DNA from: Saccharothrix saharensis
Lineage (GTDB): Bacteria > Actinomycetota > Actinomycetes > Mycobacteriales > Pseudonocardiaceae
DNA: 64,000 nucleotides
Direction: 5' to 3'
Assembly (NCBI RefSeq): GCF_006716745.1
Contig: NZ_VFPP01000001.1
Span: 2,294,001-2,358,000 of the forward strand
Below, piece after piece: positions 15,094-39,640 of the stretch. Under the pieces are notes generated by a model that was given only the letters and a program-made list of their open reading frames with translations, did no database searches and was not told the origin of the DNA. The position numbers and the translations under genes were made by a program. The stretch's first letter is position 1. Each line of letters begins with the position of its first letter.

Positions 15094-15145
15094 CACCGGA
15101 GCCTACGACCCCCACCTCTGTGCCCCGGCTCACATCCCCCCACCG

Positions 15146-15308
15146 CGCGAGTCGAACGCCCAGGTCCCGAGTGTCGAACGCTCGGGTCCCGAGTGTCGAA
15201 CGCCCGGGTCCCCCGAATTCAACGTTCAGGACCGGGCGCCGGTGTCCTGAGCGTTGAATTCAGGGGTCCTGAGGGTTCGACACTCGGGACCTGGGTGTTC
15301 GACTCGCG
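15146..15308. repeat. Composite palindromic intergenic repeat, copy 1
   Basis: A 163-bp near-palindrome built from units of about 22 bp. The left arm has three GTCGAAC units separated by GGTCCCGAGTG-like spacers plus one GAATTCAACG unit. The right arm has one GTTGAATTC unit and two GTTCGAC units. The outer ends CGCGAGTCGAAC and GTTCGACTCGCG pair perfectly. It begins 2 bp after the stop of the leftward secreted-protein gene, so it could act as that gene's terminator. Confidence 0.9.
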
Positions 15309-15310
15309 GG

Positions 15311-16243: not shown

Positions 16244-16388
16244 GCTCCACCTCCATCAGGGTTGCCCGTCGGAGCCAACGGGCCGCGCCGAACCCTGGGG
16301 TGAAGCGGTGGCCAACACAAGGGGTGATTCAGGTGATCGTTCACGCTGAGGTGCGCGGGGAGCACCGCTGACGCTTCGGGACACCGCA

Positions 16389-16424
16389 GGGCGGACCGGG
16401 AGGTCGAAGTGCCCCGGTCCGCCC
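16389..16424. terminator. Hairpin terminator after the binding-protein gene
   Basis: GGGCGGACCGGG and CCCGGTCCGCCC make a perfect 12-bp stem with a 12-nt loop, 11 bp downstream of the stop of the leftward binding-protein gene, and close its operon. Confidence 0.75.
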
Positions 16425-16434
16425 CGCGGCCGGC

Positions 16435-17355
16435 TCAGCCGTGCTCCGGCGGGCTGATCAACGACTCCGGGATCGCCGAGTCCTTGGTGCCCCACTTGTC
16501 CAGGATGCGCGGGTACACGCCGTCCTGGATCAGCTCGTTCACGGCCGCCTGCAACGCGGGCGCGAGCGGCGAACCCTTCGGCAGCGCGAAACCGACGTCC
16601 AACCGCTTGAACTCGCCCAGGAACCTCAGGTTCGGCTGGTTGGCCGCCGCGTGCCGCAGCCCGTTGATCGTGCTCATCACGACGTCGATGTGCCGCTGCT
16701 GCAACCCCAGGAACACGGCCGCGTTCTCGGAGAAGCTCAGCACCTCGTAGTCCGGCTTGCCCGCGGCACCGCACACGTGCTTCTCCCGCTCCAACGTCGC
16801 CTCGAACGTCGTGCCCGCGCCCGTGCCGACCCTCAACCCGCACAACGACACCAGGCCGTCCACCCGCGTCACGCGGTCGTCGTCGGCCCGCACCGCGAAC
16901 CCCTGGCCGTCGTTGACGTAGGTGACGAAGTCGATCGTCTTCTTCCGCGCCTCGGTCACGCCGAAGTTGCCCGTCCCGACGTCGTACTTCCCGCCGGCCA
17001 GCGACGGCAGGATCGTCTCGAAGCTCGCGACCTCCCGCTCGACCCGCACCCCCAACGTCCGGGCGACCGCCTCGGACATGTCGGCGTCCAGGCCGAGCAC
17101 CGTCTTGTTGTCCTCCGCGTAGTAGGACGACGGCGGCTGCCCGCCCACCGACGACCCGAACCGCACCACCCCCGCGTCACGCACGGCCGGTGGCAGCAAC
17201 GAGGCGATCGCCTCGTCCTCGACCACCCCCGACAGCACGTCCTCGGTCGGCTCCACGCCGGACGGGGGTGGGTCGACGGCGTCCGCGGGCAGGGCGCACC
17301 CGGAGACGACGAGCGCGAGCACGGCGGTGAGCAGCAACAGGCAACGTGCGCGCAT
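16435..17355 (-). CDS. Orphan polar amino acid-type substrate-binding lipoprotein
   Basis: A 306-residue type 3 solute-binding protein. The signal ends in LVVSGC (lipobox, Cys about residue 20). VVRFGSSVGGQPPSSYYAED, GLDADMSEAVARTLGV, KYDVGTGNFGVTEARKKTID and GTGAGTTFEATLEREK define the family. No permease or ATPase is adjacent, so it must borrow a membrane complex, perhaps the importer at 8.7-10.3 kb, or serve as a sensor. It starts 3 bp after the GNAT gene and shares its operon with the LLM monooxygenase. Confidence 0.92.
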   Translation of the reverse strand: MRARCLLLLTAVLALVVSGCALPADAVDPPPSGVEPTEDVLSGVVEDEAIASLLPPAVRDAGVVRFGSSVGGQPPSSYYAEDNKTVLGLDADMSEAVARTLGVRVEREVASFETILPSLAGGKYDVGTGNFGVTEARKKTIDFVTYVNDGQGFAVRADDDRVTRVDGLVSLCGLRVGTGAGTTFEATLEREKHVCGAAGKPDYEVLSFSENAAVFLGLQQRHIDVVMSTINGLRHAAANQPNLRFLGEFKRLDVGFALPKGSPLAPALQAAVNELIQDGVYPRILDKWGTKDSAIPESLISPPEHG

Positions 17356-22562: not shown

Positions 22563-22732
22563 ACCGGACCGACCGCACCGACTGGTTCAAGTCGAGCCGC
22601 AGCGCCGAGAACCCGGCCTGCGTCGAGGTCCGGTTCGTGCCCGACGCGATCGACGTCCGCGACTCCAAGAACCCGACCGGGCCGGTGCTGTCGTTCCCCC
22701 GATCCGCGTGGACCAAGTTCCTCAACCGCTGA
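22559..22732 (+). CDS. DUF397 small protein paired with the XRE regulator
   Basis: A 57-residue protein with the DUF397 pattern WFKSSRS...CVEVRF...IDVRDSKNPTGPVLSF...W. GTG at 22559 overlaps the XRE stop (GTGA). DUF397 proteins act as small partners or antagonists of their XRE regulator in a manner likened to toxin-antitoxin pairs, though toxicity is not general. The 3' end overlaps the convergent adenylyltransferase gene by 11 bp. Confidence 0.93.
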   Translation: MNRTDRTDWFKSSRSAENPACVEVRFVPDAIDVRDSKNPTGPVLSFPRSAWTKFLNR

Positions 22733-23459
22733 GGCGGTCAACCTCGGCCACGACGTGGCGCACGTGCTCGGGCACGCGCGCCCTCAGGTCGTCGGGCCAG
22801 CTCTCCTCGTCGTAACGGCACTCGAGGTACAGCTCCCTGGCGTGCGCCAGCACCGCGCGGTGCGCCGGTGGCAGCCGTGCCAACGCCCAGTCGGCGGCTG
22901 CGGCCTTCGACCTGATCGCGCCGGTCGCGACGGTGGTCCACACGCGGGCCAGGGTCAGCACGACGTTGCGGGTGTCGTGGTCCAGGTCGGCCAGCAGGCC
23001 CGGCACTCCCGCCAGGCTCGCCCGCACCACGTCGGCGTGCGGGACCGGGTCCAGGACCTCGGCCGGTGGCGGGCCGGACAGCGGGTGGTTCCCGGCCAAC
23101 GCCATCGTGACCAGCAGGGCCAGGTCCGGCATCGGCTCGGGCACCGGGACCGTGCCGGACTCGAACTCCGCGCGCAGCCACTCGCCGTACTGGAAGTCGG
23201 CGGTCGGGGGGAACCGCCACGGGCGGATCTCCGACTGGACCACCACGGTCAGTTCGACCGGGCGGGGGCAGGGGAGCGCCAGCAGGCCGTCCAGCAGAGC
23301 CCGCCGCCGCACGCGCTCCATCGGCCGCCGGGTGACGACGAGGAAATCCAGGTCACTGGCCGGTTTCAGGCCGTCCAGCACGGCGGAGCCGTGGAGGTAG
23401 ACGCCGAGGGGGTCGAGCACGGCACGGGTCAGCTCGGCGACCTCCCGGATCGGGTCCAC
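22722..23459 (-). CDS. AadA-like aminoglycoside adenylyltransferase
   Basis: A 245-residue nucleotidyltransferase colinear with ANT(3'')(9) AadA, which adenylates streptomycin and spectinomycin. The nucleotidyltransferase motif is YLHGSAVLDGLKPASDLDFL, with Asp36 and Asp38 as metal ligands. VELTVVV (Glu69) supplies the likely base, PWRFPPTADFQYGEWLR matches the AadA drug region (Trp94), and DTRNVVLTLARVW the C-terminal helical part (Asp162). It is slightly shorter than the 260-residue enzymes, and sits as a chromosomal gene without mobile elements, so it is probably intrinsic. Drug substrate is unproven. Confidence 0.82.
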   Translation of the reverse strand: MDPIREVAELTRAVLDPLGVYLHGSAVLDGLKPASDLDFLVVTRRPMERVRRRALLDGLLALPCPRPVELTVVVQSEIRPWRFPPTADFQYGEWLRAEFESGTVPVPEPMPDLALLVTMALAGNHPLSGPPPAEVLDPVPHADVVRASLAGVPGLLADLDHDTRNVVLTLARVWTTVATGAIRSKAAAADWALARLPPAHRAVLAHARELYLECRYDEESWPDDLRARVPEHVRHVVAEVDRLSG

Positions 23460-25282: not shown

Positions 25283-25816
25283 ATGATCGTGTGGCTCAAC
25301 GGCGCGTTCGGCGCGGGCAAGACGACCCTGGCCGAGGAGCTGCGGCGCAGGCTGCCGGACGCGCTGTCGTTCGACCCGGAACACGTCGGCCTGCTGCTCC
25401 GCATGTCCGCACCACCGCCGCCGACCGGTGACTTCCAGGACCTGCCCGCGTGGCGCAAGACGACCGCCGAGTTCGCCACCACCCTGCACCGCGAGTACGG
25501 GCAGCACGTGATCACGCCGATGACCCTGGTCGAGCGGTCCTACCAGGAGGAGATCTTCGGGCACCTGGCCTCCGCCGGCGTCCCGCTGCTGCACGTCTTC
25601 CTCGACGTGCCCGCCGACGAACTGCGCCGCCGCATCACCGACCAGGTGCTGGACCCGTACAACCCGGAGGCGGACGCCCAAGCGCGCGCCTTCCGCCTCC
25701 GCAACGTGGACCGCTGCGTCGCCGCTCGGGCCTCCCTGCCGGCGGGCACGCTCGTGCTGTCCGGTGACCGGCACCCACCGGAAGAGCTGGCCGACCAGGT
25801 CCTGGCGGCGCTCTAG
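25283..25816 (+). CDS. TmrB-like P-loop nucleotide-binding protein
   Basis: A 177-residue P-loop protein. Walker A is WLNGAFGAGKTTLAEEL near the start, followed by LPDALSFDPEHVGLLLR, HVITPMTLVERSYQEEIFG, and a C-terminal DRHPPEELADQVL. This is the pattern of the tunicamycin-resistance TmrB family and related small kinases. Resistance is only a family association. ATG at 25283 starts the Walker strand; GTG codons at 25274 and 25277 are possible. It converges on the LLM gene with a 4-bp overlap. Confidence 0.8.
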   Translation: MIVWLNGAFGAGKTTLAEELRRRLPDALSFDPEHVGLLLRMSAPPPPTGDFQDLPAWRKTTAEFATTLHREYGQHVITPMTLVERSYQEEIFGHLASAGVPLLHVFLDVPADELRRRITDQVLDPYNPEADAQARAFRLRNVDRCVAARASLPAGTLVLSGDRHPPEELADQVLAAL

Positions 25817-26613
25817 GACGACGGCGGGCCGGCGGTGATCCGCTCGCGGACCGCGTCGACCGTCGTTTCCCAGTCCGACTCGATCCACCAGGTGGCGCCC
25901 GCGTCGGCCCACTCGGCCACGTCGGTCGCCTTGCCCTCGGCGATCACGTCGAAGCCGTCCCACGGCAACCCGAGCGAGGTGCGCAGCGACCGCGCCTCCG
26001 CCACGATCGCCGACAGCTCCGCCGGGGTCTCGGCACCGCGCGCCTCGCCGTCCGCGATCACGTTCGGCAGCAGCCCGTCCCACGACACGGCACGCCGCAT
26101 CGACACCGGACGGCCGAACGCGCCCACCACCCACACCGGCACACGGGGCCGTTGCACGGGCGGTGGGGGTGGGAAGAAGTCCGTTTCCCGCACGTCGTAG
26201 CGCCGGCCGTGGAACGAGAACGGTTGGCCGCGCATCAGGCCGTCGTACACGGCCAGGCCTTCGTCGAGCAGCAGCGCCCGCTCGGCACGACCGGTCTCGC
26301 GCTCGAACGCGGTCCAGCCCGGGTGCAGGGCGCCCAGCCCGACCGAGAGCTGCACCCGCCCGCCCGACAGCCGGTCCAGCGTCGCCGCCTTCGACGCCAC
26401 GTCCCACGGCTTGAACCGGGGCAGCGGCGTGAGCATCGTGCCCAACCGCACCGACGACGTGCGCATCGCCGCCGCCGCCAACGCCACCCACGCGTCGACG
26501 CCCCACACCGCCTCGGCCAGGAACACGCCGTCCCAGCCGCACTCCTCCGCCAACGCCGCGCACGACGCCACGTCCGGCGCGTCGAAGAACGGCAGCACGA
26601 TCCCGCACCGCAT
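25813..26613 (-). CDS. LLM-class F420/flavin-dependent oxidoreductase
   Basis: A 266-residue luciferase-like TIM barrel: RCGIVLPFFDAPDVASCAAL, VRLGTMLTPLPRFKPWDVAS, RVQLSVGLGALHPGWTAF and FHGRRYDVRETDFFPPPPP. Short members of this class in actinobacteria generally use F420. As third gene of the P450-rppA operon, 23 bp after rppA, it may reduce or oxidise a naphthoquinone intermediate. That role is inferred from position only. The longer open frame that continues upstream runs inside rppA and is not this protein. Confidence 0.85.
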   Translation of the reverse strand: MRCGIVLPFFDAPDVASCAALAEECGWDGVFLAEAVWGVDAWVALAAAAMRTSSVRLGTMLTPLPRFKPWDVASKAATLDRLSGGRVQLSVGLGALHPGWTAFERETGRAERALLLDEGLAVYDGLMRGQPFSFHGRRYDVRETDFFPPPPPVQRPRVPVWVVGAFGRPVSMRRAVSWDGLLPNVIADGEARGAETPAELSAIVAEARSLRTSLGLPWDGFDVIAEGKATDVAEWADAGATWWIESDWETTVDAVRERITAGPPSS

Positions 26614-26636
26614 GCGCGGCAGCGTCCCACACCGCG

Positions 26637-27704
26637 TCACGGCACGGCGGCGAGCCGGGACGCGGTCCACGTGCCGAGCGCGATCTCCGCCGTGATGCCC
26701 GGCCCGAACCCCGCGATGACGCCCCGCGCACCGGGCCGCGCGCCGCCGTCGGCGAACAGCCGTGCCAGGGCGTCGAAGATGACGACGCTGGCCACGTTGC
26801 CGCGCTCGGTGAGCGTGGTCCTGCTGTACCGGAACGTCTCCGGCGGCAGCCGCAGGTGCTTGCCCAGGTCGTCCAGGATCCGCGGCCCGCCCGCGTGCAC
26901 GATGTAGAAGTCGAGGCCCGCGATGTCCCAGCCGTGCGGTTCGGCCATGTCCCGCATGGCGGGCGCGAGCACCGACATCGTGCCGGGCACCCGCTTGTCC
27001 AGCAGGAAGTGGAACCCGGTCTCGCGCACCTCGTAGGCGATCCAGTCCTCCGTGTCGGGCACCAGCCGCGAGCTGTTCCGCTCGACCGACACGCCCTCGC
27101 CGCCCTCGCCCCGCATCACGGCCGCCGCCAGCGCGTCGCCGAACAGGCCGTTGGACAGCAGGTTGCCGACGGCGCGGTCCGTCGGCTGGTAGAGCAGCGA
27201 GCAGAACTCGCACGCGACGATCAGCACGTTCGACCGCGGGTAGGCGGTGCAGAAGTCGTGCGCGCGGTTGATCGCCGCGCCGCCGGCGGCGCAGCCGAGC
27301 TGGGCGATCGGGAGTTGCCGGGTGGACGACCGGAACCCCATCGTGTTGATCAGCCAGGCCGTCATCGACGGCATCATGAACCCGGTGCACGAGACGTACA
27401 CGATCAGGTCGATGTCGGCGGCGGCCAGGTCGGCGTGGTCCAACGCCCGCCGCACCACGTCCGGCACCCGGGACTTGGCCTCCTTCTCGTAGACGGCGTT
27501 GCGCACGGTGAAACCGGGGTGCTTGAGGGTGTCCTCGATCGGCTGGACGATGTGCCTGGTCTGGACGCCGGTGTTGCCGATCAGCCGCAGCGCGAGGTCG
27601 AGCTGCGGGTGGTCGCGGTGCAGCACCCTGGCCAGTTCCAGGGTCTGCTCGCGGGTGATGAGGTGTTCGGGCACCGCGATGGCGGGCCGGCACAGCGTGG
27701 CCAC
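26637..27704 (-). CDS. rppA: Type III polyketide synthase, 1,3,6,8-tetrahydroxynaphthalene synthase
   Basis: A 355-residue homodimeric synthase condensing five malonyl-CoA to tetrahydroxynaphthalene, precursor of flaviolin-type pigments. With the GTG at 27704 the catalytic triad falls at Cys138 (IAQLGCAAGG), His270 (FYIVHAGG) and Asn303 (ERGNVASV), the same numbers as I recall for S. griseus RppA. A GAGGAG site lies 4 bp before the GTG. The frame is open further upstream, but that is P450 sequence. It is preceded by the P450 gene with an 8-bp gap. Confidence 0.93.
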   Translation of the reverse strand: MATLCRPAIAVPEHLITREQTLELARVLHRDHPQLDLALRLIGNTGVQTRHIVQPIEDTLKHPGFTVRNAVYEKEAKSRVPDVVRRALDHADLAAADIDLIVYVSCTGFMMPSMTAWLINTMGFRSSTRQLPIAQLGCAAGGAAINRAHDFCTAYPRSNVLIVACEFCSLLYQPTDRAVGNLLSNGLFGDALAAAVMRGEGGEGVSVERNSSRLVPDTEDWIAYEVRETGFHFLLDKRVPGTMSVLAPAMRDMAEPHGWDIAGLDFYIVHAGGPRILDDLGKHLRLPPETFRYSRTTLTERGNVASVVIFDALARLFADGGARPGARGVIAGFGPGITAEIALGTWTASRLAAVP

Positions 27705-27712
27705 GGCTCTCC

Positions 27713-28936
27713 TCACCACGTGACCGGCAGGGCCAGCGGGTACCGCCAGATCGAGACGGTGTTCCACCGCACCTCCGCGGCCGGGACCGCCGACCGCAGG
27801 GTCGGGAACCGCGCGAGCAGCCCGCCGACGGCCTCCTGGAGCACCATGCGGGCCAGGTGCGAGCCCGGGCAGTGGTGCCCGCCGTGGCCGAACGTCAGGT
27901 GCGGCGCGGGGTCGCGGCGGTCGAAGTCGAGCTCGTCGGGGCGGTCGTAGGCCAGCTCGTCGCGGTTGCCGGTCAAGTAGGACACGTGGACCGCGTCACC
28001 CGCCTTGATCGTCACGCCGCCCAGCTCGACGTCCTCCAGGGCGACGCGCGGGATGCCGACGCCCTGCCGGAACGGGATGTACCGCAGCAGCTCCTCGACG
28101 GCCCGCGGCACCACCTCCGGCTCCGCGCGCAGCCGGGCCAGGTGCCGGGGGTGGGTGAGCAGCGTGAACGTGATGTCGCCGATCTCGTAGGTCGTGGTGT
28201 CGTGGCCGGTGACGGCGAGGAGCATGGCCAGCACGGACAGCTCGGCGTCGGCGAGCACGTCGTCACCGACGCGGGCCGTGGCCAGGGCGCTGATCAGGTC
28301 GTCGCCCGGGTCGCGGCGGCGGGCGGCGGTGAGCTGGTCGAAGTAGCCGCGCATGGCGGCCTTGGCCTCGGCGGCGGCGGTCCGGTCGGCGGGGCTCATC
28401 GACATCATGGTCGCCGCCCACGCCCGCACCCGCGGCCGGTCCGGCTCGGGGATGTCCAGCAGCTCGCAGATCGTCATCAGGGGCAGCCGGTCCGCCAGGT
28501 GCTCGACCACGTCGGCCGGTGGGCCGTGCTCGACCATGGCGTCGAGGAGGGCGTGGACGGTCCGGCGCGTCCACGGTCGCAGCGCCTCGACCTGGGGTGT
28601 GGTGAACGCCTTGGCGACCAGCCTGCGGACCCGGTTGAGCGCGGGCGGGTCCATCAGGTTGATCGCCTCGCGCTGGGCTATGGGCGCCGGCGTGATGCGC
28701 GGGAAGTCGCGTCCGATCAGCGCGGCCCGGCTGAACCGCCGGTCGGAGGTGACCGCCCGGACGTCGTCGTAGCGCGTCACCAGCCACGCCTCGCCCTCCC
28801 CGTACGGCATGCGCACCCTGGCGACCGGCGCCTCGACCCGCATCCGGGTCAGGAACGGGTCGGGCTCCAGTGCCTCGTCATGGCGGAAGGGGCAGGTCGG
28901 CGCGGACTCCCGGTCACGCGCTCGGACGTTCACCAC
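27713..28936 (-). CDS. Cytochrome P450 (CYP158-like) of the rppA operon
   Basis: A 407-residue bacterial P450. The heme loop is FGHGGHHCPGSHLAR with ligand Cys356, the I-helix AVTGHDTTTYE (about 241-251) and the ExxR is EELLR at 281-285. The pairing with RppA and features such as NLMDPPALNRVRRLVAKAF match the enzymes that couple flaviolin or oxidise tetrahydroxynaphthalene (CYP158A/P450mel). Ferredoxin partners are not adjacent. Adjacent GTG codons at 28936 and 28933 both could start; GAGGGG sits 7 bp upstream of the first. It heads a P450-rppA-LLM operon. Confidence 0.92.
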   Translation of the reverse strand: MVNVRARDRESAPTCPFRHDEALEPDPFLTRMRVEAPVARVRMPYGEGEAWLVTRYDDVRAVTSDRRFSRAALIGRDFPRITPAPIAQREAINLMDPPALNRVRRLVAKAFTTPQVEALRPWTRRTVHALLDAMVEHGPPADVVEHLADRLPLMTICELLDIPEPDRPRVRAWAATMMSMSPADRTAAAEAKAAMRGYFDQLTAARRRDPGDDLISALATARVGDDVLADAELSVLAMLLAVTGHDTTTYEIGDITFTLLTHPRHLARLRAEPEVVPRAVEELLRYIPFRQGVGIPRVALEDVELGGVTIKAGDAVHVSYLTGNRDELAYDRPDELDFDRRDPAPHLTFGHGGHHCPGSHLARMVLQEAVGGLLARFPTLRSAVPAAEVRWNTVSIWRYPLALPVTW

Positions 28937-29182: not shown

Positions 29183-29647
29183 TCAGAAGATGGGCGTGAA
29201 GACGCACTCGAACCCGTACTCCCGGCCCGGCCGCGGGCTGCTGACCATCCAGTACTCGCCGGGTCGGACGACGACGCCCATGTAGGAGTTGAGGTCGGCG
29301 CTGGAGTCGGCGTAGCCGACGCTGGTCTCCGGCGGGTTCGCGGTCCCGACGAGCAGCCGGAGCCGGGACGTCCGCCCGCCGACGAAGAACACGGCCACGT
29401 AGCCGAACGTCTTCGCGTGGTAGACGGTGTCCAGCGCGGCTTGGAAGCGCGGTTGGCCGACCCCGACCGACGCCGCGCGCGCCTCCAGGGACCGCAACGC
29501 GCCGTCGGTCCGCTCGGCCAGCCCGTGCAGCCGCGCGTACCGCTCCTCGTCGTCGGTCAGCTTGCCCAGCAGGCCGGTCAGCCGTTCGACGCGGCCTTCC
29601 AGCTCCCGCACCCTGGTGTACAGCGCTTCGTCCCTGGTTCCGAACAC
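29183..29647 (-). CDS. Coiled-coil protein of the CHAT-TPR operon
   Basis: A 154-residue protein. The N-terminal third (about 5-60) is a heptad-rich helix (LYTRVRELEGRVERLTGLLG, KLTDDEERYARLHGLAE). The rest (about 65-154) is beta-rich and compact (FGYVAVFFVGG, SRLRLLVGTANP, YMGVVVRPGEYWMV, YGFECVFTPIF). No family is recognised. GTG at 29647 follows an AGGGG site. It starts 26 bp after the CHAT gene and is likely the last gene of the operon, perhaps a target or sensor for the protease. That is inference. Confidence 0.7.
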   Translation of the reverse strand: MFGTRDEALYTRVRELEGRVERLTGLLGKLTDDEERYARLHGLAERTDGALRSLEARAASVGVGQPRFQAALDTVYHAKTFGYVAVFFVGGRTSRLRLLVGTANPPETSVGYADSSADLNSYMGVVVRPGEYWMVSSPRPGREYGFECVFTPIF

Positions 29648-29673
29648 GTCCTCACCCCTCTCGGCGAGGGACG

Positions 29674-30879
29674 TTACGCACCGTCCGGTCCCCTACCGGT
29701 CCCAACTGCACGGCGGGGTGACGGTGCCCAGGTCGTGGTGCACGCCGCCCAGACGAGCGGTGACCAGGTGAGGTCGCCGGTGTCCTCCCACCGGGTGGCG
29801 GCGGCACGTTGCCACTCGTTGAGCGCGGTCACCGGGTCGGGCGCGCGGTGGGCGGCGTCGACCGCCAGCACGGTCGGCGCGAGGACCGGTGTCGGGGGGA
29901 AGCCGGGGACCAGTCGGCGCAGCCCCTCGTCGGTCGGCAACGTCCACCTCGTCGCCGTGACGTGCTCCGCGCCGCCGTGCACCATGGCGGTGACCAGGCC
30001 GGACGGTTCGGCGAACCGGACGTCGCCGCCGCTCTCGCACGCCACCAGGGCCACCCGCGCGGGGATGCGCCACGGGCGCACCGGGCCGGCGCGGTGACCC
30101 AGCACGATGTCGGCGGCGGTCAGGGGGCGGTGGGCGCCGATCGGCGCGGCCCGGCCCTCGGTGTCGGCGGTGCAGGACAGGTGCAGGCGCGCGTCCAGGC
30201 CGTGCTCGCCGGTGGTCACGTGGCCGACGTAGAGCAGGCGTGACGCGGTGGCCAGGGCTCGTTCGAGGTGGTCGCGGTCGAGGTCGTCGCGGCGCGTGCC
30301 GCCGAGCGCCGCCAGGTCCGCCGGGCCGAGGACCGAACCCAGGCCGGAGTGGTCGGCGAACCCCGGCACGACGGGGTCCAGCACGGCCACGACCGTCCCT
30401 TGTGGATCGAACGGGCTGACGCGGCGTGCGGCGGCGTTGCCCACGGTGGCCGGTGGCAGCACCGAGATCGTGGCGTCGTGGACCGCCCGCAGCCCGTCGT
30501 CGATCCGCAGGGCTTCCCAGGGCACCAGGGCGGTCGACGGGGACGGTTGGACGCGCAGGTGGGGCCGGATCCCCCGGCCGAGGAACGCGTTCAGCTCCAC
30601 CGCCAGCCGGTGCGGGATCAACGCCCGCGCCAGCCTGGTCGCCAGGTCCCGCTCGCGGTCGTGGTCCACGAGCGGGCCGCGGGTGAGCGCGCGGCGCAGG
30701 GCCTGGTCGGCGGTCTCCCCCGGCAACGGCGACGGCACCGCTTCGGCCCACTCGGTCAGCGTGGCGTGCACGAGGTCGCGCGGCACGGCCACGACGCGCG
30801 GCTCGGCCGGTTCGTGCTCCCAGCGCCACGAGACGTACAGGTCGCCCGCGTCCACGAGCTTGAGCTGGACGGTCACCAC
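29674..30879 (-). CDS. CHAT-domain caspase-like protease
   Basis: A 401-residue protein whose C-terminal part (about 95-375) is a CHAT domain. The predicted dyad is His220 (SRLLYVGHVTTGEHG) and Cys281 (VALVACESGGDVRFAEPSGL), with LVPWEALRIDD, PLTAADIV and VHGGAEHVTATRW as supporting motifs. The N-terminal about 90 residues are an unassigned beta/helix region. CHAT proteases act in programmed proteolysis and defence, often triggered by TPR partners. The GTG at 30879 overlaps the TPR gene end by 7 bp; GTG at 30876 is also possible. Confidence 0.88.
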   Translation of the reverse strand: MVTVQLKLVDAGDLYVSWRWEHEPAEPRVVAVPRDLVHATLTEWAEAVPSPLPGETADQALRRALTRGPLVDHDRERDLATRLARALIPHRLAVELNAFLGRGIRPHLRVQPSPSTALVPWEALRIDDGLRAVHDATISVLPPATVGNAAARRVSPFDPQGTVVAVLDPVVPGFADHSGLGSVLGPADLAALGGTRRDDLDRDHLERALATASRLLYVGHVTTGEHGLDARLHLSCTADTEGRAAPIGAHRPLTAADIVLGHRAGPVRPWRIPARVALVACESGGDVRFAEPSGLVTAMVHGGAEHVTATRWTLPTDEGLRRLVPGFPPTPVLAPTVLAVDAAHRAPDPVTALNEWQRAAATRWEDTGDLTWSPLVWAACTTTWAPSPRRAVGTGRGPDGA

Positions 30880-32957
30880 GACGCCACCGCCCGGCCGGAG
30901 CGGACGGGGAAGCCGTAGCGGCGTTCGGCCACGTCGATCCAGGCGTCCAGGGCGGTCGGCACGGCGGGGTCGAGCCGGACCCTCGGCGGCAGGTCGAAGC
31001 CGGTGGCGGGGTCCGCGCCGGTGGCCAGGCCGGCGGCGGCGTAGGGCAGGTGCGCCTCGACCACCGGCGGCGCGGGCAGCGCCACCAGCTCACCGCGTTC
31101 GACGTGCCCGGCGCCTTCCGCCTGCAAGGACACCGAGCCGGCGACGTGGTCGACGTACTCGGCGGCCAGGGTCACGTCCTGCACCGCCCGGATCGCCAGG
31201 AACGCCGTGCGGGTCGCGGGTGCGGAGGCCAACGCCACCCAGCGCTCCCGCAGCGGCCCGTGCGGGAACCGCTGCCGCACGGCCTCCGCCGCCAGCGCGG
31301 CGGGCAGGGCCAGGTCCAGCGCCCGGTGGCCGAGCCGGCGGCGTTCGTCCCCGGTGACCGCCGCGGCCCGGCGCACCAGGGCGTCCGCCCGCCACCACGC
31401 CATGCCCAGCGCGACGTGCCACAGCCCGGCCGCCTCGCACAGTTCCGCCGCCCGCGCGTAGCAGGCCTCGGCCTCGGCGAAGTCCCGCGCCGCCTCGAAC
31501 GCCGAACCCCGCACCTGGTGCACGGCCACTTCCTGCAACGGGGTCGCCGCACCCAGCAGCGCGAGCGCGCGGTCGGCCAGCGCCAGTGCCTCGCGCGGCC
31601 GGCCGCGCAGCACCGCGACCGCCGCCCGACCGTGCAGGCACACCGCCCGCCGGCCGGGGTCGTCGGCGAGCAGGGCGTCCGCCTCGTCGTACAGGGCGTC
31701 GGCCCGGTCGGCGTCCGAGGCCAGGTAGGCCAGGCGCGCGGCGCTGAGCAGGGCGGTGGCCTCGCCCGGGACGTCGCCGGTGGCGGCGCTCAGCTCGCGG
31801 GCCAGGGCCAGGTGCTCGGAAGCGCCGGGCAGGTCGCCGGTCGCGCTGGTGATCTCGGCCCACGTCAGGTGGACGGACGCGGCCAGCGCGGGCGCGGCGG
31901 AGTAGGCGAGGTCCAGCGCTCGGCGCGCCTCGTCCGCCGCTTCGGCGAACCAGCCGCCGGTGGCGAGCACGCGGGCGCGCAGGGCGCGGACGGTGGCTTC
32001 GTGCGACTCGCCGTCGTCGGCGGCCGTGACGATGTCGAGGGCGTCGTCCAGGTCGGCCAGCGCTTCGGGCAGCCGCGTCTGCCGCTGTCGTGCCGCGGCA
32101 CGTGACACCAGCGCGTTCACCAGCACGGTGGCGGACCCGTACGCGTCGCCGACCTGGCTCAACGCCTCCCGTGCCGCTTCGACCGCCTCGGTGCTCCACC
32201 GCACGACGTCGTCGGGGTGGTCGGCGACGCCGGCGAGGTTGCCCGCGACACCCGCCCGGCACACGACGGCTTCGACGTCGTCGACGTCCAGGGTTTCGAG
32301 GTAGGCGGCGTCGAAGGCCGACTTGGCGGCGGCGCGGTCGCCTGCCGCCAGCAGCGCCACGCCCTCGGCGTTCAGCTCCACGAACCGCCGCCACCGGGGG
32401 CCGAGCGGCTGCCGGCCCGGGTTGTCCGCCAGCATGCGGTACATCGCCGCGCGCCGCTCGTCACCCGCCTCGTCGGCCAGGAGCGCCAGGCCGGCGTACA
32501 GGTTCTCCAGGTACTCCGGCGCGTGCCGCGCGGCCAGGTCGACGGTGCGGGTGGCTTCCGCCTCGGCCTCCGCGAGCCGGCCGGCCGCCATCAGCAGGCC
32601 CACGCGGGAGGTGCGGAGCACCACCTCACCCGTCGCGTCGGCGTCGGCCAACGCGCCCTCGACGTCCCGCCACGCCTCGTCCCACCGGTCCAGCCAGGGC
32701 AGCAGGTCGGCGCGCGAGGCGAGGGCCATGACCCAGACCTGCCCCTCCCCCGCCTCGATCGCCTCGGTCAGCAGGTCCACGGCGAGCTGCCGTTCACCGG
32801 CCAGGTCGACCACGTGCGCCAGGTTCACCAGGACGTGCGGGCGGTCTGCCGGGGGTGCCGCCGTCAAGGCCGCTTCGAGCGCCGCACGCGCGCCGGCCAC
32901 GTCACCGTCGGCGGCGAGCCGCACGCCCTCGTCGTGCGACGCCGACCAGTCGCTCAC
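30873..32957 (-). CDS. Tetratricopeptide-repeat protein, CHAT partner
   Basis: A 694-residue all-helical protein made of degenerate TPR/MalT-type repeats from residue 1 to about 600 (repeat-like segments EAALTAAPPADRPHVLVNLA, AGERQLAVDLLTEAIEAGEG, ALADLDDALDIVTAADDGE, EAEACYARAAELCEAAGLWH). The last about 80 residues (LDAWIDVAERRYGFPVRSGR) are non-repeat and could contact the protease. No enzyme motif is seen. The GTG overlaps the upstream gene's stop by 4 bp, and its end overlaps the CHAT gene, so it is made at the same time as both. Confidence 0.85.
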   Translation of the reverse strand: MSDWSASHDEGVRLAADGDVAGARAALEAALTAAPPADRPHVLVNLAHVVDLAGERQLAVDLLTEAIEAGEGQVWVMALASRADLLPWLDRWDEAWRDVEGALADADATGEVVLRTSRVGLLMAAGRLAEAEAEATRTVDLAARHAPEYLENLYAGLALLADEAGDERRAAMYRMLADNPGRQPLGPRWRRFVELNAEGVALLAAGDRAAAKSAFDAAYLETLDVDDVEAVVCRAGVAGNLAGVADHPDDVVRWSTEAVEAAREALSQVGDAYGSATVLVNALVSRAAARQRQTRLPEALADLDDALDIVTAADDGESHEATVRALRARVLATGGWFAEAADEARRALDLAYSAAPALAASVHLTWAEITSATGDLPGASEHLALARELSAATGDVPGEATALLSAARLAYLASDADRADALYDEADALLADDPGRRAVCLHGRAAVAVLRGRPREALALADRALALLGAATPLQEVAVHQVRGSAFEAARDFAEAEACYARAAELCEAAGLWHVALGMAWWRADALVRRAAAVTGDERRRLGHRALDLALPAALAAEAVRQRFPHGPLRERWVALASAPATRTAFLAIRAVQDVTLAAEYVDHVAGSVSLQAEGAGHVERGELVALPAPPVVEAHLPYAAAGLATGADPATGFDLPPRVRLDPAVPTALDAWIDVAERRYGFPVRSGRAVASW

Positions 32958-33961
32958 CGCGCCGTCCGCTCGGTGAGCGTCGCGGTCGGCGAGGTGGTCC
33001 GGGCTCGGGCGTAGGCGATGATCGCCGCACGGCGCGGCCCGGCGGCGGGGTCCGGCGCGGCCGGTTCGGCGAAGTCCGGCGCGTAGACGACCAGCTCGCG
33101 CCGGTCCGGCGGCAGGAGCAGCACCGCCGCCGACACCGGCGTGGACCCGGTGAGCCGACCCACCTCGTCGACGCCGTCCAACGCCACCTCGACGTCACCG
33201 AACCGTGCCGCCAACCGGGCTCCCGGCTTCGGCCCGGGCACGACGGAGACCTCCACCACCGTGCGCCCCTGCCGCCGCACGACGGCCCACGTGGCGGGCG
33301 CGGCGGCGTCCACCGCACCGTGCGGCACCAACGACCAGTCCACAGTGGACGAACCGGACAAGGCGGCGATCCCGCCGCGGCCGCCGTCGAGACCTCCGGC
33401 CGCCAGGGCGAAACCCGACTGGCGAGGCACCTCCGCCGCGGGCAGGACCACGCCGTAGTCCTCGGCGAGGGCGGACACACGCCCGGCCAGGGCGGTCAAC
33501 GCGGGGTCGGACGCGTCGAGCGGAACGACCGCCGCCAACGCCCGCTCCACCGCGTCCGGATCGTCCAGCAGGTGCTCCACGGCGGACACCTCGACGGCCA
33601 GTTCCGCGTGCAGCACGGCGGTGTTAAACGCGGGCACGCCGGCCGTCACCGACGCGGGCCACCACGCGCTCGCCCAGTTCAGCTGCGCCACCCGCCGGCA
33701 CGCGTCACGGACGCGCCGGTCACCGGGACCGGGCTCACCCACCTCCGCCGCACCGCCGAGGATCGCGTCCGCCGCGTCCCCGTAGACCTCCCACAGCCAC
33801 TCCGCCGCACGGTCCACGTCGTGCACCCGCGCGGCGGGCACGGGGGCGTCGACCAGGACGTCCCACGCCAGCAACGCGCCCGAGCACTCCAGCAGCGCCA
33901 CCACCTCGGGCGACGTGGGCCAGTCGCCGACGACGACCTCGGACCCGCGGGTCACCCTCAT
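32954..33961 (-). CDS. Unknown protein, second gene of the CHAT-TPR operon
   Basis: A 335-residue soluble protein without signal or membrane segment. The N-terminal about 180 residues look helical (VDRAAEWLWEVYGDAADAIL, RVRDACRRVAQLNWASAWWP, LHAELAVEVSAVEHLLDDPD). The C-terminal half is beta-rich (TWAVVRRQGRTVVEVSVVPG, VSAAVLLLPPDRRELVVYAP). I do not recognise a family. The start ATG overlaps the preceding stop and the stop overlaps the TPR start, each by 4 bp, which makes a stoichiometric complex with its neighbours likely. Confidence 0.75.
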   Translation of the reverse strand: MRVTRGSEVVVGDWPTSPEVVALLECSGALLAWDVLVDAPVPAARVHDVDRAAEWLWEVYGDAADAILGGAAEVGEPGPGDRRVRDACRRVAQLNWASAWWPASVTAGVPAFNTAVLHAELAVEVSAVEHLLDDPDAVERALAAVVPLDASDPALTALAGRVSALAEDYGVVLPAAEVPRQSGFALAAGGLDGGRGGIAALSGSSTVDWSLVPHGAVDAAAPATWAVVRRQGRTVVEVSVVPGPKPGARLAARFGDVEVALDGVDEVGRLTGSTPVSAAVLLLPPDRRELVVYAPDFAEPAAPDPAAGPRRAAIIAYARARTTSPTATLTERTAR

Positions 33962-35205
33962 GCCACCGCCTCCCGCTCCAGCGCCGAGCGCAGCCGGTCG
34001 CGCTGGTCCAGGATCACCGACCGCAGCACGCCGTCGAGCACGTCCCACACCTGGTCGAACGCCACGGGGTCGTGGCGCAGCTCGCGGCCGTGCACGCGCG
34101 CCCACAGCCGCCGCAGGTACGCCTCCCGCACACCGCGCACGTCCGCGCGGACCTCCGGCGGCGCGGCCGACGGCATGCGCAGCACGCGGTGCACGTACGC
34201 CTCGCGCTCCCACCTCGACCGCAACCGCGCAGCGGCCGACCCCGGCTCGCCCGCCGGCGGACCGGCGAGGTCGGCGGACGCGTCCCGACCCAGCACCACG
34301 ACCAGCCGGCTCTCCTCGTCGGCGAGCTGCCACGGCCCGGCGGACCGGGCGATCTCCCGCCGCACCAACGTCGGCACGTCGGCCAGCCCGGCCCGCTGCG
34401 CCGCGTTGGTCAGCGGCGCGAACAGGCGTTCCAGGATCGACCGGTCGAACGGCCGGGGCAGGTTCGCCTTCGACGCGCCACGTCCCAGCTCGGGCCGCAC
34501 GGGCACGTCGCGCGAGGTCAGCCCGTGCGCCAGCGCCACGCCCGGCCGGTGCAGCCCGACCGCGCCCGCGGTGCCGGCCCGGCCCGCGACCAGCGCGCCG
34601 AACAGGGCCCGGTCGGGCGCGACGGCGCAGGTGGCCAGGAACGGGGACGTCGCCATCGCGGTCACCGCCACCGGGGCGCGCGCGGCCCACGCGGAGGCCA
34701 GCAGCTCCGTCAGCTCACCCGCGTTCGCCGGATCGGTGAGGTGGTCGCGCAGTGCCGCCACGGTCGGCCCTTCGCGCCCGTGGACCTCTTCCAGCACGTC
34801 GGCGGCGATGTCGGCGGCGTCCGGGCCGGGTCCGCCGTGCGCCGTCGCCAGCTCGAAGCAGCGCTGGAAGTAGAGGTCCTGCGGGTTGCCGTCGGTGATC
34901 CACCGGCGGCGGCGTTCCTTCTTCAGCACCACGAACCAGCTCGCGGTCGCGGCCAGCACCGGACCCGCGTCGAGGATCCGGGACACCAGCGCGTCGGCGT
35001 GCTCGGCGGCGACCGCGCCCGCCGCGAACTCCGGGTTCAGCACGGGACGCAGCACCAGCGGGTCGAGGACCAGCTTGACCGTGCGGGTCAGCGGGCGGCC
35101 CGCCGCGTTGCTCAGCGGCGCGACCGCGTCACCCAGCCCGGCCCACGCCCGCGCGACCAGCGCGCCCCGCGGCAGCGTCGTCGGCACGGCTCGGGCGGTG
35201 CTCAC
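33958..35205 (-). CDS. Unknown protein, first gene of the CHAT-TPR operon
   Basis: A 415-residue, mostly helical, Ala/Arg-rich soluble protein. Segments such as AGPVLAATASWFVVLKKERR, GNPQDLYFQRCFELATAHGG, FLATCAVAPDRALFGALVAG and RRLWARVHGRELRHDPVAFD show amphipathic helices but no catalytic motif I recognise. It is first in the operon, so it may be a scaffold or sensor; this is inference. The GTG at 35205 lacks a strong ribosome site, suggesting leaderless initiation or a later start. Confidence 0.72.
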   Translation of the reverse strand: MSTARAVPTTLPRGALVARAWAGLGDAVAPLSNAAGRPLTRTVKLVLDPLVLRPVLNPEFAAGAVAAEHADALVSRILDAGPVLAATASWFVVLKKERRRRWITDGNPQDLYFQRCFELATAHGGPGPDAADIAADVLEEVHGREGPTVAALRDHLTDPANAGELTELLASAWAARAPVAVTAMATSPFLATCAVAPDRALFGALVAGRAGTAGAVGLHRPGVALAHGLTSRDVPVRPELGRGASKANLPRPFDRSILERLFAPLTNAAQRAGLADVPTLVRREIARSAGPWQLADEESRLVVVLGRDASADLAGPPAGEPGSAAARLRSRWEREAYVHRVLRMPSAAPPEVRADVRGVREAYLRRLWARVHGRELRHDPVAFDQVWDVLDGVLRSVILDQRDRLRSALEREAVA

Positions 35206-35236
35206 CGGCCCGAGCCTAGTCGAACCCGATCACCGC

Positions 35237-35306
35237 TGGTGGCGCACTCGCGCGCCGCGTTCCTGGGACCGGTAGGCGGCCCGCGGGCCCGACGCTTGCG
35301 CCACCA
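35237..35306. promoter_or_regulatory. Long-range inverted repeat between the CHAT operon and the membrane-protein gene
   Basis: TGGTGGCGC at 35237-35245 and GCGCCACCA at 35298-35306 are perfect 9-bp complements 52 bp apart in the 120-bp divergent promoter region. The first arm lies 32 bp upstream of the CHAT operon start and the second 20 bp upstream of the rightward gene. This could be a looped operator pair controlling both sides. Confidence 0.4.
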
Positions 35307-35325
35307 CGACAGAACGGGGGACCCG

Positions 35326-36423
35326 ATGTACCGGACACCGCCGCAGTACCCGCCGGTGATGCCCTACCAGACCCCGCCGCCACCTCGCCGACGCGTCCTG
35401 CCGCTGCTGCTGTTGCCGCTCGCGCTGTTCGCGCTGCTGTTCTTCGGCGGGTCCTACGCGGTCTCACCGGAGCCCGAGGTCGAGATGCAGTCCGGGTTCG
35501 CGTTCGCCGAGGTCGACGGTCGGGACGTGGTGCTCGCCCCCTACGCGCGGCACGGCGTGCGCGGCATGTTCCAGCTGATGACGCAGGACCTGTTCCAGGT
35601 GCGGCTCGCGGCCACCGACCCGGCCACCGGCGACGTGCTGTGGGACACCCAGTTGTCCGACCGGCTCGTCTGGGAGGCGTCCGTGCTGGCCGCCGGGCAG
35701 CGGCACGCCTACCTGGCCACCGACTCGGGCCTGGTCGTGGTCGCGCTGGCCGACGGGTCGGTGGTGGCCGAGGGGGCGGGCGTGCCGGGGCTCGGCGACG
35801 CGTTCGCCGCCGTGCGCACGGCCTACGCCTACGACCCGGACGCCCGCCGGGTGATGGCCATGACCGCCACCGGAGGGGTGGTGGCGATCGGGCTGGACGA
35901 GGTGGCGGCGACGCCGGTCGACGCGGCGACCGCCGCCGCCTGGTCCGGCCGGCTCTCGGTGCAGCGCGGCCCCGGCGCGCCGACCAGCGCGACCGGCGTC
36001 GAGGCGTCGCTGGACTCCGGCGTCGAACGGGTCGCGCTGCGGCAGGCGCCCGGTGGCGCGCCGGGCAGCGTGCTGGTCCGCGTCACGGCCGACGGCCGCG
36101 AGGTACCGGTCGGCACGACCGCGTTCCACGGCGCGCGGCTGGTGGTCGACGGCGTCACCGCCGTCGCCGCCGCCACCGGGCACGTGCTGGTCGAGCACCA
36201 GCGCTCGGTGAACGACCCCGGCGTGGCGCTCAGCCTCGTCTCCCTGGCCACCGGGCAGGTCACCGCCACGTTGGCGGTCGACTCCCGGGTGGACCGCGCC
36301 CTCGTCGGCCCCGACGGCGTCACGGCCGTCGCCGCGGGCGAACTCCTCGCCGCCGCGCGCGGTGACGGCCGGGTCGTGCCCCTGGGCATCGGCCTCGCCG
36401 ACTTCTTCGGTGCCCACCGCTGA
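35326..36423 (+). CDS. Membrane-anchored beta-propeller-like protein
   Basis: A 365-residue protein. A Pro-rich cytoplasmic start (YRTPPQYPPVMPYQTPPPP) is followed by one membrane helix (about 25-45) and an outside domain of PQQ-like blades: VRLAATDPATGDVLWDTQLS, HAYLATDSGLVVVALADGSV, VLVEHQRSVNDPGVALSLVS. I associate this pattern with the PA2928 family, but that is uncertain. No catalytic residues are seen. Start ATG at 35326; a partner gene begins 21 bp downstream, so both form a unit. Confidence 0.75.
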   Translation: MYRTPPQYPPVMPYQTPPPPRRRVLPLLLLPLALFALLFFGGSYAVSPEPEVEMQSGFAFAEVDGRDVVLAPYARHGVRGMFQLMTQDLFQVRLAATDPATGDVLWDTQLSDRLVWEASVLAAGQRHAYLATDSGLVVVALADGSVVAEGAGVPGLGDAFAAVRTAYAYDPDARRVMAMTATGGVVAIGLDEVAATPVDAATAAAWSGRLSVQRGPGAPTSATGVEASLDSGVERVALRQAPGGAPGSVLVRVTADGREVPVGTTAFHGARLVVDGVTAVAAATGHVLVEHQRSVNDPGVALSLVSLATGQVTATLAVDSRVDRALVGPDGVTAVAAGELLAAARGDGRVVPLGIGLADFFGAHR

Positions 36424-36444
36424 CCCCCGGAAGGACGACACACC

Positions 36445-37224
36445 ATGAAGGCACTCCCCTGGCTCGGTCTCACCGTCGGGCTCGGCCTCACCGCGGCGTG
36501 GGTCGCGGGCGGCCTCGCGGGCGACGACGTGTTCGCCTGGCTGAACGGGTGGCTGGCCGGCCCGTTCATCCTCCTGTTCGCCGTGCCCAGCCTGTTCTCG
36601 ATGAGCGGGCTGTTCGGCGGCGGCCTCGCGGCCCTGACCGGCGGCGTGCCCCAGGAGTTCCGCGGCGCGCCGATCGGCATGGGCACGGTCGTGGGCGTGG
36701 CGCGGACCGGCCTGACCGTCAACGACCAGCCCCAGCTCGACATCCGGCTCCAGGTCGACACCGCGGACGGCCGCTCGTTCCCGGCCACCGCGCGGCAGGT
36801 CGTCGACATCACGGAGCTGTCCGTCGTGCAGCCGGGCGCGATCCTGCCGGTCCGCTACCTGTCCGACGGCCGCGCCGTGCTCGCCACGGACGCGCCGCCG
36901 CACGAGCTCCAAGCCGCCCTCGACCGCGTGCACGTGGCCAAGGGCATCCTGACGCCGCACCAGCTCCGCATCACCGAGGAGGGCGTCGAGACCAGCGCCG
37001 TCGTGCTGGACATGCTCCCGACCGGACAGGCGCCCGACGGCCGGACGGCGTTGCGGCTGACCCTGCGCGTGACCCGACCGGACGGCACCACGTTCGACGT
37101 GACGCAGGACAAGAAGCTGCCGCCAATGTCGATCCCGCAGGTGCAGCGCGGGATGGTGGTCAAGGCGATGTACCTGCCCGAGGACGAGTCGGACGTCGCG
37201 GTCCTCACCAAGCTCTTCCCATGA
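36445..37224 (+). CDS. Membrane protein with duplicated beta-rich domain
   Basis: A 259-residue protein. Two membrane segments (about 3-25 and 33-58) precede two similar soluble halves (about 75-155 and 158-258). Each half contains a [20 protein letters not shown]-type strand followed by LxLxLxVxxxDG ([37 protein letters not shown]) and an ending like GAILPVRYL or [18 protein letters not shown]. No family is recognised. It follows the propeller-like gene by 21 bp, with a GGAAGG site. Confidence 0.72.
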
Positions 37225-37324
37225 CGGCGGTGCCGGCGGGCGGACCGGCGTTGATCCGGTCGGCCCAGCCGGCCGGGTCGGGGTGCCCGAACGTGCCCCG
37301 GCGGGCAGGGCACAATGGCTCGCT

Positions 37325-39640
37325 GTGACCACAGCCATTCACCAGAGGATCGCCGACGAGCTCGGGGTGCGGGCCGGGCAGGTCAGCGCCGCCGTCGACC
37401 TGCTCGACGGTGGTTCCACCGTCCCCTTCATCGCCCGCTACCGCAAGGAAGCGACCGGCGCGCTGGACGACGCCCAGCTGCGCACCCTGGAGGAGCGGCT
37501 GGGCTACCTGCGCGAGCTGGAGGAACGCCGGGCGGCTGTGCTCGAGTCCATCCGGTCGCAGGGCAAGCTGGACGAGGCGCTGGAGGCCTCGATCCTGGCC
37601 GCCGACTCCAAGGCCCGGCTGGAAGACCTCTACCTGCCGTACAAGCCGAAGCGGCGGACCAAGGCGCAGATCGCGCGCGAGCAGGGCCTCGAACCGCTCG
37701 CCGACGGCCTGCTGGGCGACCCGGCGCAGGACCCGCAGGAGGTGGCGAAGGCGTTCGTGACCGAGGAGATCCCCGACGCCGCCGCCGCGCTGCAGGGCGC
37801 GCGGGCGATCCTCGTCGAGCGGTTCGGCGAGGACGGCGACCTCATCGGCGAGCTGCGCGAGCGCATGTGGGCCCAGGGCCGGCTCGCGTCCAAGGTCCGG
37901 GAGGGCAAGGAGGAGGACGGGGCGAAGTTCTCCGACTACTTCGATTTCTCCGAGCCGTTCACCAAGCTGCCCTCGCACCGCATCCTCGCGCTGCTGCGCG
38001 GCGAGAAGGAAGAGGTGCTCGACCTCCAGTTCGACCCGGCCGACTCCGACGAGCCCACCGGCTACGAGGCGCGCATCGCGTCCCGGTTCGGCGTGGACGA
38101 CCGGGGTCGGCCCGCCGACCGCTGGCTGTCCGACACGGTCCGCTGGGCGTGGCGCACCCGCATCCTCGTGCACCTGGGCATCGACCTGCGGTCGCGGCTG
38201 CGGGCGTTCGCCGAGGACGAGGCCGTGAAGGTGTTCGCGTCGAACCTGCGCGACCTGCTGCTGGCCGCGCCGGCGGGCACCCGGGCCACCATGGGCCTGG
38301 ACCCCGGCTTCCGCACCGGCGTGAAGGTGGCCGTGGTCGACGCGACCGGCAAGGTCGTCGACACCGACACCATCTACCCGCACGTGCCCGCGAACCGGTG
38401 GGACGAGTCGATCGCCAAGCTGGCCGTGCTGGCGAAGAAGCACGCCGTGGAGCTGGTCGCCATCGGCAACGGCACCGCGTCGCGGGAGACCGACAAGCTG
38501 GCCGTCGACCTGCTCAAGCGGCACCCCGAGCTGAAGCTGACCAAGGCCGTGGTGTCCGAGGCGGGCGCGTCGGTGTACTCCGCGTCGGCGTTCGCCTCGG
38601 CGGAGCTGCCCGGGCTGGACGTGTCGCTGCGCGGCGCGGTGTCCATCGCCCGCCGCTTGCAGGACCCGCTGGCCGAGCTGGTGAAGATCGACCCCAAGTC
38701 GATCGGCGTCGGCCAGTACCAGCACGACCTGTCCGAGTCGAAGCTGTCGCGCTCGTTGGACGCGGTGGTCGAGGACTGCGTGAACGCCGTCGGCGTCGAC
38801 CTGAACACCGCGTCCGCGCCGCTGCTGACCCGGGTCTCCGGCATCACCGCGGGCCTGGCCGAGAACATCGTGCTGCACCGCGACAGCAACGGCCCGTTCC
38901 GCTCGCGGCGCGCGTTGAAGGACGTGGCGCGGCTGGGCCCGAAGGCGTTCGAGCAGTGCGCGGGCTTCCTGCGCATCCCGAACGGCGACGACCCGCTGGA
39001 CGCCTCCGCCGTGCACCCCGAGGCGTACCCGGTGGTGCGGCGGATGCAGGAGCGGGCAGGCGGCGAGCAGCTGATCGGCAACACGGCGGTGCTCAAGTCG
39101 CTGCGCCCGCAGGAGTTCGTGGACGAGCGGTTCGGCCTGCCGACCGTCACCGACATCCTGCGCGAGCTGGAGAAGCCGGGGCGCGACCCCCGGCCCGCGT
39201 TCAAGACGGCCACGTTCGCCGACGGCGTGGAGAAGATCTCCGACCTCGAGCCCGGGATGGTGCTGGAGGGCGTGGTGACGAACGTGGCCGCGTTCGGCGC
39301 GTTCGTGGACGTCGGCGTGCACCAGGACGGCCTCGTGCACATCTCGGCGCTGTCCAACACCTACGTCAAGGACCCGCGGGACGTGGTCAAGTCCGGTGAC
39401 GTGGTGCGGGTGAAGGTGCTGGAGGTCGACATCCCGCGCAAGCGGATCGGGTTGACACTGCGGCTGGAGGACGAGCCCGGCCGCAAGCAGCCGCGTGAGC
39501 AGCGCGAACCGCGTGGCAATCAGCGTGGGCCGCGTGGCGGTGGCGGTGGTGGCGGCAAGCCCCGTCAGCAGGAGCGCCCGCCCGCGAACGGCGCGATGGC
39601 CGAAGCGCTGCGGCGTGCCGGGCTTGGCGGCGGCAAGTAG
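37325..39640 (+). CDS. tex: Tex family transcription accessory protein
   Basis: A 771-residue RNA-binding protein. In order: N-terminal helical domain with [20 protein letters not shown], YqgF/RNase H-like domain with [20 protein letters not shown] (about 320), helix-hairpin-helix segments including [17 protein letters not shown] and [22 protein letters not shown], and an S1 domain with [20 protein letters not shown] (about 650-725). A basic Gly-rich tail follows ([19 protein letters not shown]). GTG at 37325 precedes [10 protein letters not shown]; an in-frame TTG upstream is not needed. It is a single gene under its own promoter. Confidence 0.95.

Follow-up and report, generated by a model that had tools for sequence, protein, structure and literature searches.

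A conserved actinobacterial cassette joining a TPR-CHAT protease pair to two protein families without detectable relatives and a tmRNA-tag-like motif in a disordered linker

The window analysed here is a stretch of 64,000 nucleotides from Saccharothrix saharensis (NCBI RefSeq assembly GCF_006716745.1, contig NZ_VFPP01000001.1, positions 2,294,001 to 2,358,000, forward strand), and our subject is a cassette of genes on its minus strand that joins a tetratricopeptide-repeat (TPR) protein and a CHAT protein to two further proteins, designated A and B. Our comparative analysis revealed that A, B, TPR and CHAT are a real system. TPR and CHAT very probably form one protease, and B, which carries a near-invariant motif in a disordered linker, may be cut there by TPR-CHAT, a reading to which we give somewhat less than an even chance. 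The five leftward open reading frames (ORFs) described in the first-pass annotation were present exactly where it had placed them and at the lengths it gave, running from 35205 to 29183 with overlaps of 4, 4 and 7 bp between successive genes and a final gap of 26 bp. They encode A, the first gene of the operon (33958-35205, 415 residues), B (32954-33961, 335 residues), TPR (30873-32957, 694 residues), CHAT (29674-30879, 401 residues) and a coiled-coil protein, C154 (29183-29647, 154 residues). The boundary of the cassette as first drawn needs correction at both ends, since C154 falls outside it and the divergent gene D (36445-37224, plus strand), often with gene C (35326-36423, plus strand), belongs to it.

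Co-inheritance was followed in a family sample of 150 Pseudonocardiaceae genomes and in a separate phylum draw of 396 genomes. In the family sample A was found in 32 genomes, B in 31 and a strong CHAT of the same family in 29, and both A and B were present in every one of these 29. The remaining genomes with A or B hold remnants, namely A with B in one (G132), part of A in two (G031, G023) and fragments of B in one (G110). The last of these is a Saccharothrix relative that has lost the cassette, with only the B fragments lying between the Tex and patatin genes (L145, 9518-9902). In the phylum draw A occurred in 11 genomes. A scan of GTDB contigs yielded 190 relatives of A, of which the best 80 loci cover Pseudonocardiaceae, Streptomyces, Glycomyces, Nocardia, Rhodococcus, Microbacterium, Promicromonospora and others. 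Enough contig for scoring all four genes was available at 74 of the 80 loci, and A, B, TPR and CHAT were all present in the same order at 71 of them, two others having A and B and one A alone. As genes, the four are conserved across about 90 loci, and their distance matrices correlate with r of 0.94-0.97, a value to which shared ancestry contributes. Independent occurrence of the genes, which the first-pass annotation had named beforehand as the outcome that would speak against it, was looked for and was not seen for the four core genes. Six copies of A homologues lie on actinobacterial replicons of 1.2-2.7 Mb listed as plasmids (NZ_CP108509.1, NZ_CP108269.1 and four others), and a search for phage-borne copies of the cassette found none.

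Several departures from the common layout argue for a functional linkage of the genes: the re-ordering in Mycobacterium, fusions of TPR with CHAT, genomes with two loci and the loss of the cassette in G110. In Mycobacterium the modules stand as TPR-CHAT, then D on the opposite strand, then A-B. Two Pseudonocardiaceae genomes (G027, G114) have an A-B locus with broken or missing TPR-CHAT and, at a second locus (L143, L144), an intact TPR-CHAT of a different subtype without A or B. Standing apart in these genomes, A-B on the one hand and TPR-CHAT on the other act as separate modules, and the single stoichiometric complex that had been proposed is not supported. Short intergenic gaps are common in actinobacteria, and on the gaps alone the cassette could be a chance run of unrelated genes around a CHAT gene; the order kept in 72 loci, the intact re-ordered set in Mycobacterium and the gene fusions make this extremely improbable, and for A, B, TPR and CHAT we regard it as refuted. 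For C154 it holds. Among 13 relatives checked, C154 was found in only four (L063, L064, L066, L067), all of them Saccharothrix, and as it occurs at this site only in that genus it was ruled out as a fifth core part. Thus, of the five-gene operon first proposed as a unit, four genes stand as a conserved set, C154 is limited to one genus, and D had been missed. Insertions were seen at two loci. In Rhodococcus opacus (L132, 13885-16545) TPR and CHAT are separated by an insert of 2.7 kb; in a Glycomyces (L102, 11014-13565) A carries an in-frame insert, and 1.7 kb of inserted DNA separates A from B.

The identities of TPR and CHAT given by the first-pass annotation were borne out by Pfam, with several TPR matches for the TPR gene (PF13424, E 1.1e-12) and a match to PF12770 for the CHAT gene (33 bits vs a cut-off of 24, E 5.5e-8). 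The predicted catalytic dyad, H220 (30220-30222) and C281 (30037-30039), is likewise upheld, both residues being invariant in 93 of 93 CHAT homologues, those of Mycobacterium included. With the dyad intact throughout, CHAT is expected to be an active caspase-like cysteine protease. In the window TPR and CHAT are separate genes with a 7-bp overlap, and they form a single gene in 20 of the 90 loci scored, which belong to separate clades and require at least four changes on the CHAT tree as drawn by a quick tree method. Such recurrent fusion argues that the two act together, as had been suggested, and we consider a single TPR-CHAT protease very likely. Over the same pairs of loci the mean identity is 34% for TPR, 40% for B, 50% for A and 53% for CHAT; TPR is the fastest evolving of the four, which fits it as the sensing part. 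A CHAT profile searched against PDB sequences matched no chain up to E 1, Csx29 included. In Streptomyces zhaozhouensis and S. sedi (L085 and L092, about 14465-16690) an extra TPR gene stands between TPR and CHAT. On the CHAT tree both species branch with Glycomyces, which suggests transfer.

A and B are two families not described in the libraries searched. Neither they nor C154 match Pfam (for A and B up to E 1), and NCBIfam, PADLOC and PHROG name no family for A, B, CHAT or C154. Against PDB sequences A and B gave nothing beyond one chance match of E 0.88 for A. Confident AlphaFold2 models built with 52-55 homologues were obtained for both. A is modelled as all-helical, with a predicted local distance difference test score (pLDDT) of 91.8 and a predicted template modelling score (pTM) of 0.70, and B as an alpha/beta N-terminal domain and a beta-sandwich C-terminal domain (pLDDT 92.9, pTM 0.88). 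The fold of A has no match in the PDB with E below 0.69, and that of B has none in the PDB or among the viral models of BFVD with E below 0.1. Matches of A to class-I terpenoid-synthase-like folds (E 1-10, probability about 0.03) were not taken as evidence. B was also considered as a self-cutting S24 peptidase of the LexA type and rejected, its C-terminal domain having no conserved Ser/Lys pair.

In the model of B only residues 182-193, the linker between the two domains, have pLDDT below 50, and this predicted disordered linker holds the motif FALAAG (residues 184-189, window 33395-33412, minus strand). In an alignment of 95 homologue rows A185-L186-A187-A188 is kept in 93 and L-A in all 95, and in the extended motif [YFW]ALAAG the preceding aromatic residue is kept in nearly all rows and the following G in 88. 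The regions on either side are indel-rich and variable in sequence and length, and among conserved 4-mers of A, B and CHAT the ALAA of B has the greatest contrast to its flanks (2.6 bits, the next being 1.5). The same letters end the peptide tag encoded by the transfer-messenger RNA (tmRNA, gene ssrA) of the host. The tag of the window's genome is AESNDQRAFALAA, whose end FALAA (…AFALAA) is the same as in B; among 60 cassette genomes nearly every tmRNA tag finishes in ALAA, and in Mycobacterium and Nocardia the tag ...QRDYALAA compares with ...RRDDYALAAG in B. A base of 790 flanking proteins contained [FYW]ALAA in only 3. Unusual tags were noted in Kibdelosporangium (...REVALAA, L184), Actinophytocola (...RDVALAA, L177) and Saccharothrix obliqua (...AAYSLAA, L189).

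We propose that the cassette is a proteolytic signalling system of three modules. TPR and CHAT would make up one caspase-like protease, in which TPR senses or gates and may serve as a scaffold; A and B would be the response, with B as substrate and A as its partner or effector; and the divergent, putatively membrane-linked D, joined by C in some lineages, would supply the input. Activated CHAT would cut B once in the disordered linker that joins its two domains, inside the [YFW]ALAA-G motif or beside it, and the cut would separate the N-domain of B from the beta-sandwich, releasing or activating A or B. The model has a precedent in Csx29, the relative that has been studied best, a TPR-CHAT protein that makes a single cut within a small, flexible loop of Csx30, the product of a neighbouring gene, and leaves an unstable N-fragment, a case that the authors of that work compare with RseA and ClpXP (PMC10028731), and substrates of CHAT proteases are commonly encoded nearby (PMC9729208). 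By these precedents B would be the substrate and its near-invariant loop the cut site. The first-pass annotation had proposed one of the unnamed proteins or the coiled-coil protein as substrate or scaffold; B is a credible substrate by virtue of the motif within its disordered linker, and the genus-limited C154 is not borne out in that role.

Should the cut fall between A188 and G189, the N-fragment of B would end in the tag end of the host's own tmRNA and would pass to ClpXP. In LexA and RseA, a cut next to small residues exposes a C-terminal xAA that is recognised by ClpX. Neher et al. are said to have reported in 2003 that cleaved LexA goes to ClpXP, and PMC5742171 cites that study. The cassette would share with these proteins a cut next to small residues that exposes such an end. 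It would differ in that the exposed end would be a full [YF]ALAA tag end, and in the cutter, LexA cleaving itself and RseA being cut by DegS and RseP, whereas CHAT is proposed for B. This more specific version, in which CHAT exposes a hidden tmRNA-like tag and ClpXP destroys the N-domain, switching the system over in one irreversible step, we consider unlikely.

A number of observations weigh against the model and its tag variant. ALAA is favoured in high-GC proteins (90 observed vs 54 expected), and covariation between motif and tag, looked for across the loci, was not found: the tag is VALAA at L071 and L082 and YSLAA at L077, yet B keeps YALAA or FALAA, and B of Glycomyces has W where the tag has F. 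As the motif does not track deviant tags, the likeness would be to a general degron, and co-evolution with the tag is unsupported; the likeness was moreover recognised in retrospect and may be coincidental. On the input side, C is absent from most loci, and the putative membrane role of D is read from hydropathy alone. Finally, the conserved motif, lying as it does in a disordered loop, might serve docking instead of cutting. Short peptides are common ligands of TPR domains, and [YFW]ALAAG might be a docking peptide that binds a pocket on A, TPR or CHAT, or might act as a pseudo-ssrA peptide, and so restrain the protease, with the CHAT substrate lying elsewhere. Its shortness, its invariance and its place in the linker suit docking as well as cutting; the G after ALAA in 88 of the 95 rows and the aromatic residue before it extend the motif in the manner of protease subsites, and the genes for CHAT substrates commonly adjoin that of the protease (PMC9729208), although both points are compatible with docking too. 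We regard this possibility as somewhat unlikely.

The cassette might alternatively be an anti-phage or abortive infection system, as the first-pass annotation had considered, in which CHAT kills or arrests the infected cell upon sensing a phage. CHAT proteases act in defence elsewhere (Craspase, gasdermin operons), and the patchy presence in 32 of 150 family genomes and 11 of 396 in the phylum draw, the decayed copies and the signs of transfer in S. zhaozhouensis and S. sedi would all suit such a role. Against it, PADLOC models searched with A, B, TPR, CHAT and C154 gave nothing beyond a generic TPR match below threshold (E 0.016), phages carry no copies in our search, and the 131 proteins examined in the flanks of other loci belong most often to ABC, MFS, deacetylase and further metabolic families, a few of them giving generic PADLOC matches, and form no clear defence island. 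With such metabolic flanks the anti-phage role is unsupported, and we judge it improbable. Those same ordinary chromosomal flanks, the putatively membrane-linked D at most loci and the about 60 invariant residues of A among 55 homologues, many of them charged, would suit a regulator of development or envelope stress in mycelial actinobacteria, with A as an enzyme and CHAT only removing its inhibitor B. A has no recognisable active site or fold, however, and the loss of the cassette in close relatives speaks against an essential role; this explanation too appears somewhat doubtful.

Returning to the proposed three-module system, its input would come from the genes divergent to A. D is a protein of 259 residues that is hydrophobic in its N-terminal region and has two related domains of beta type. 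It was found in 24 of the 150 Pseudonocardiaceae genomes, all 24 of which have A, and it adjoins A in 23. A D-type gene, in its long form or in a Streptomyces short form, lies just upstream at 72 of the 80 loci and is divergent at 71; the short and long forms are linked by a profile-profile match of P 9.5e-5 and a probability of only 59%. The hydropathy profile of D has one 19-residue segment above 1.6. C (365 residues, one N-terminal membrane segment) is an accessory gene of the PA2928 family (NCBIfam NF041516, 307 bits vs a cut-off of 70, E 2.2e-91), found at about 30 of the 80 loci. The membrane segment of C and the hydrophobic region of D make an envelope signal plausible as the input of the cassette. 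A 624-residue minus-strand ORF at 35464-37338 was dismissed as a shadow of C and D.

The divergent promoter region between A and C spans 120 bp (35206-35325), and its features were read as a consensus from an alignment of 13 related loci only. TAGGCT at 35218-35213 (minus strand) lies 7 nt ahead of the GTG of A, which suggests a leaderless transcript, and a block CCTACC(G/A)(A/G)TC(A/C)CAGGAA (CCTACCGATCACAGGAA-like) at 35276-35260 recurs in nearly all of the 13. We consider the two a candidate leaderless promoter and operator. Scans of the sequence for sigma-70 promoters and terminators gave nothing clearly above chance.

Among known systems, Craspase of type III-E is the closest in kind, with a TPR and CHAT protease with a His/Cys dyad and neighbour genes of unknown fold (PMC10028731, PMC9729208). 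There TPR is fused to CHAT, whereas the two are separate in the window and fused in the 20 homologous loci of other lineages; Csx30 is cut in a flexible loop and leaves an unstable N-fragment, a fate only proposed for B. The cassette differs in that neither an ECF (extracytoplasmic function) sigma factor partner nor a Cas7-11 or CRISPR gene was identified, no Cas effector being found among the window neighbours or the commonest Pfam families of the 131 flanking proteins, and in that A and B resemble no solved structure in sequence or fold. The CATRA systems, named in the first-pass annotation, are alike in kind only, as phyletically restricted multi-gene systems with a caspase-superfamily protease and TPR. 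CATRA-type Pfam models match no protein of the cassette, and CATASP (PF20271) has no match in the window's genome, the control genomes being silent too; with no CATRA-specific domain found, the cassette was not assigned to CATRA. Operons of a CHAT or caspase-like protease with bacterial gasdermin likewise place CHAT beside a likely substrate, but the cassette has no gasdermin, and B has no match to a membrane-pore fold. We found no description of this gene set in the open literature searched. The set, the A and B families and the tag-like loop thus appear undescribed there, and a TPR-CHAT signalling protease is known as a kind.

The nearest protein relatives of the window's cassette are in Saccharothrix, and its neighbours in the window encode a P450, a type III polyketide synthase, a patatin, the PA2928-family protein, Tex and an epimerase. 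A small biosynthetic cluster likely lies beside it at 25813-28936, with annotations of a luciferase-like monooxygenase (ORF 25813-27693), the type III polyketide synthase (26637-27767) and the P450 (27713-28936). A gene resembling AadA-type aminoglycoside nucleotidyltransferases is located at 22722-23459.

CHAT proteases are common in bacteria, and to our knowledge few of them have a known substrate. The cassette adds a widely distributed CHAT-TPR system, undescribed in the library searched, for whose A and B families no relative could be detected in Pfam, NCBIfam, PHROGs or the PDB, and it offers a probable substrate in B together with a probable cut site at residue level. If the cut does expose an ssrA-like end, it would tie caspase-like signalling to ClpXP, as with LexA and RseA. 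A caspase-like protease would then be coupled to tmRNA-tag degradation, a coupling conserved in families of Actinomycetota from Saccharothrix to Mycobacterium.

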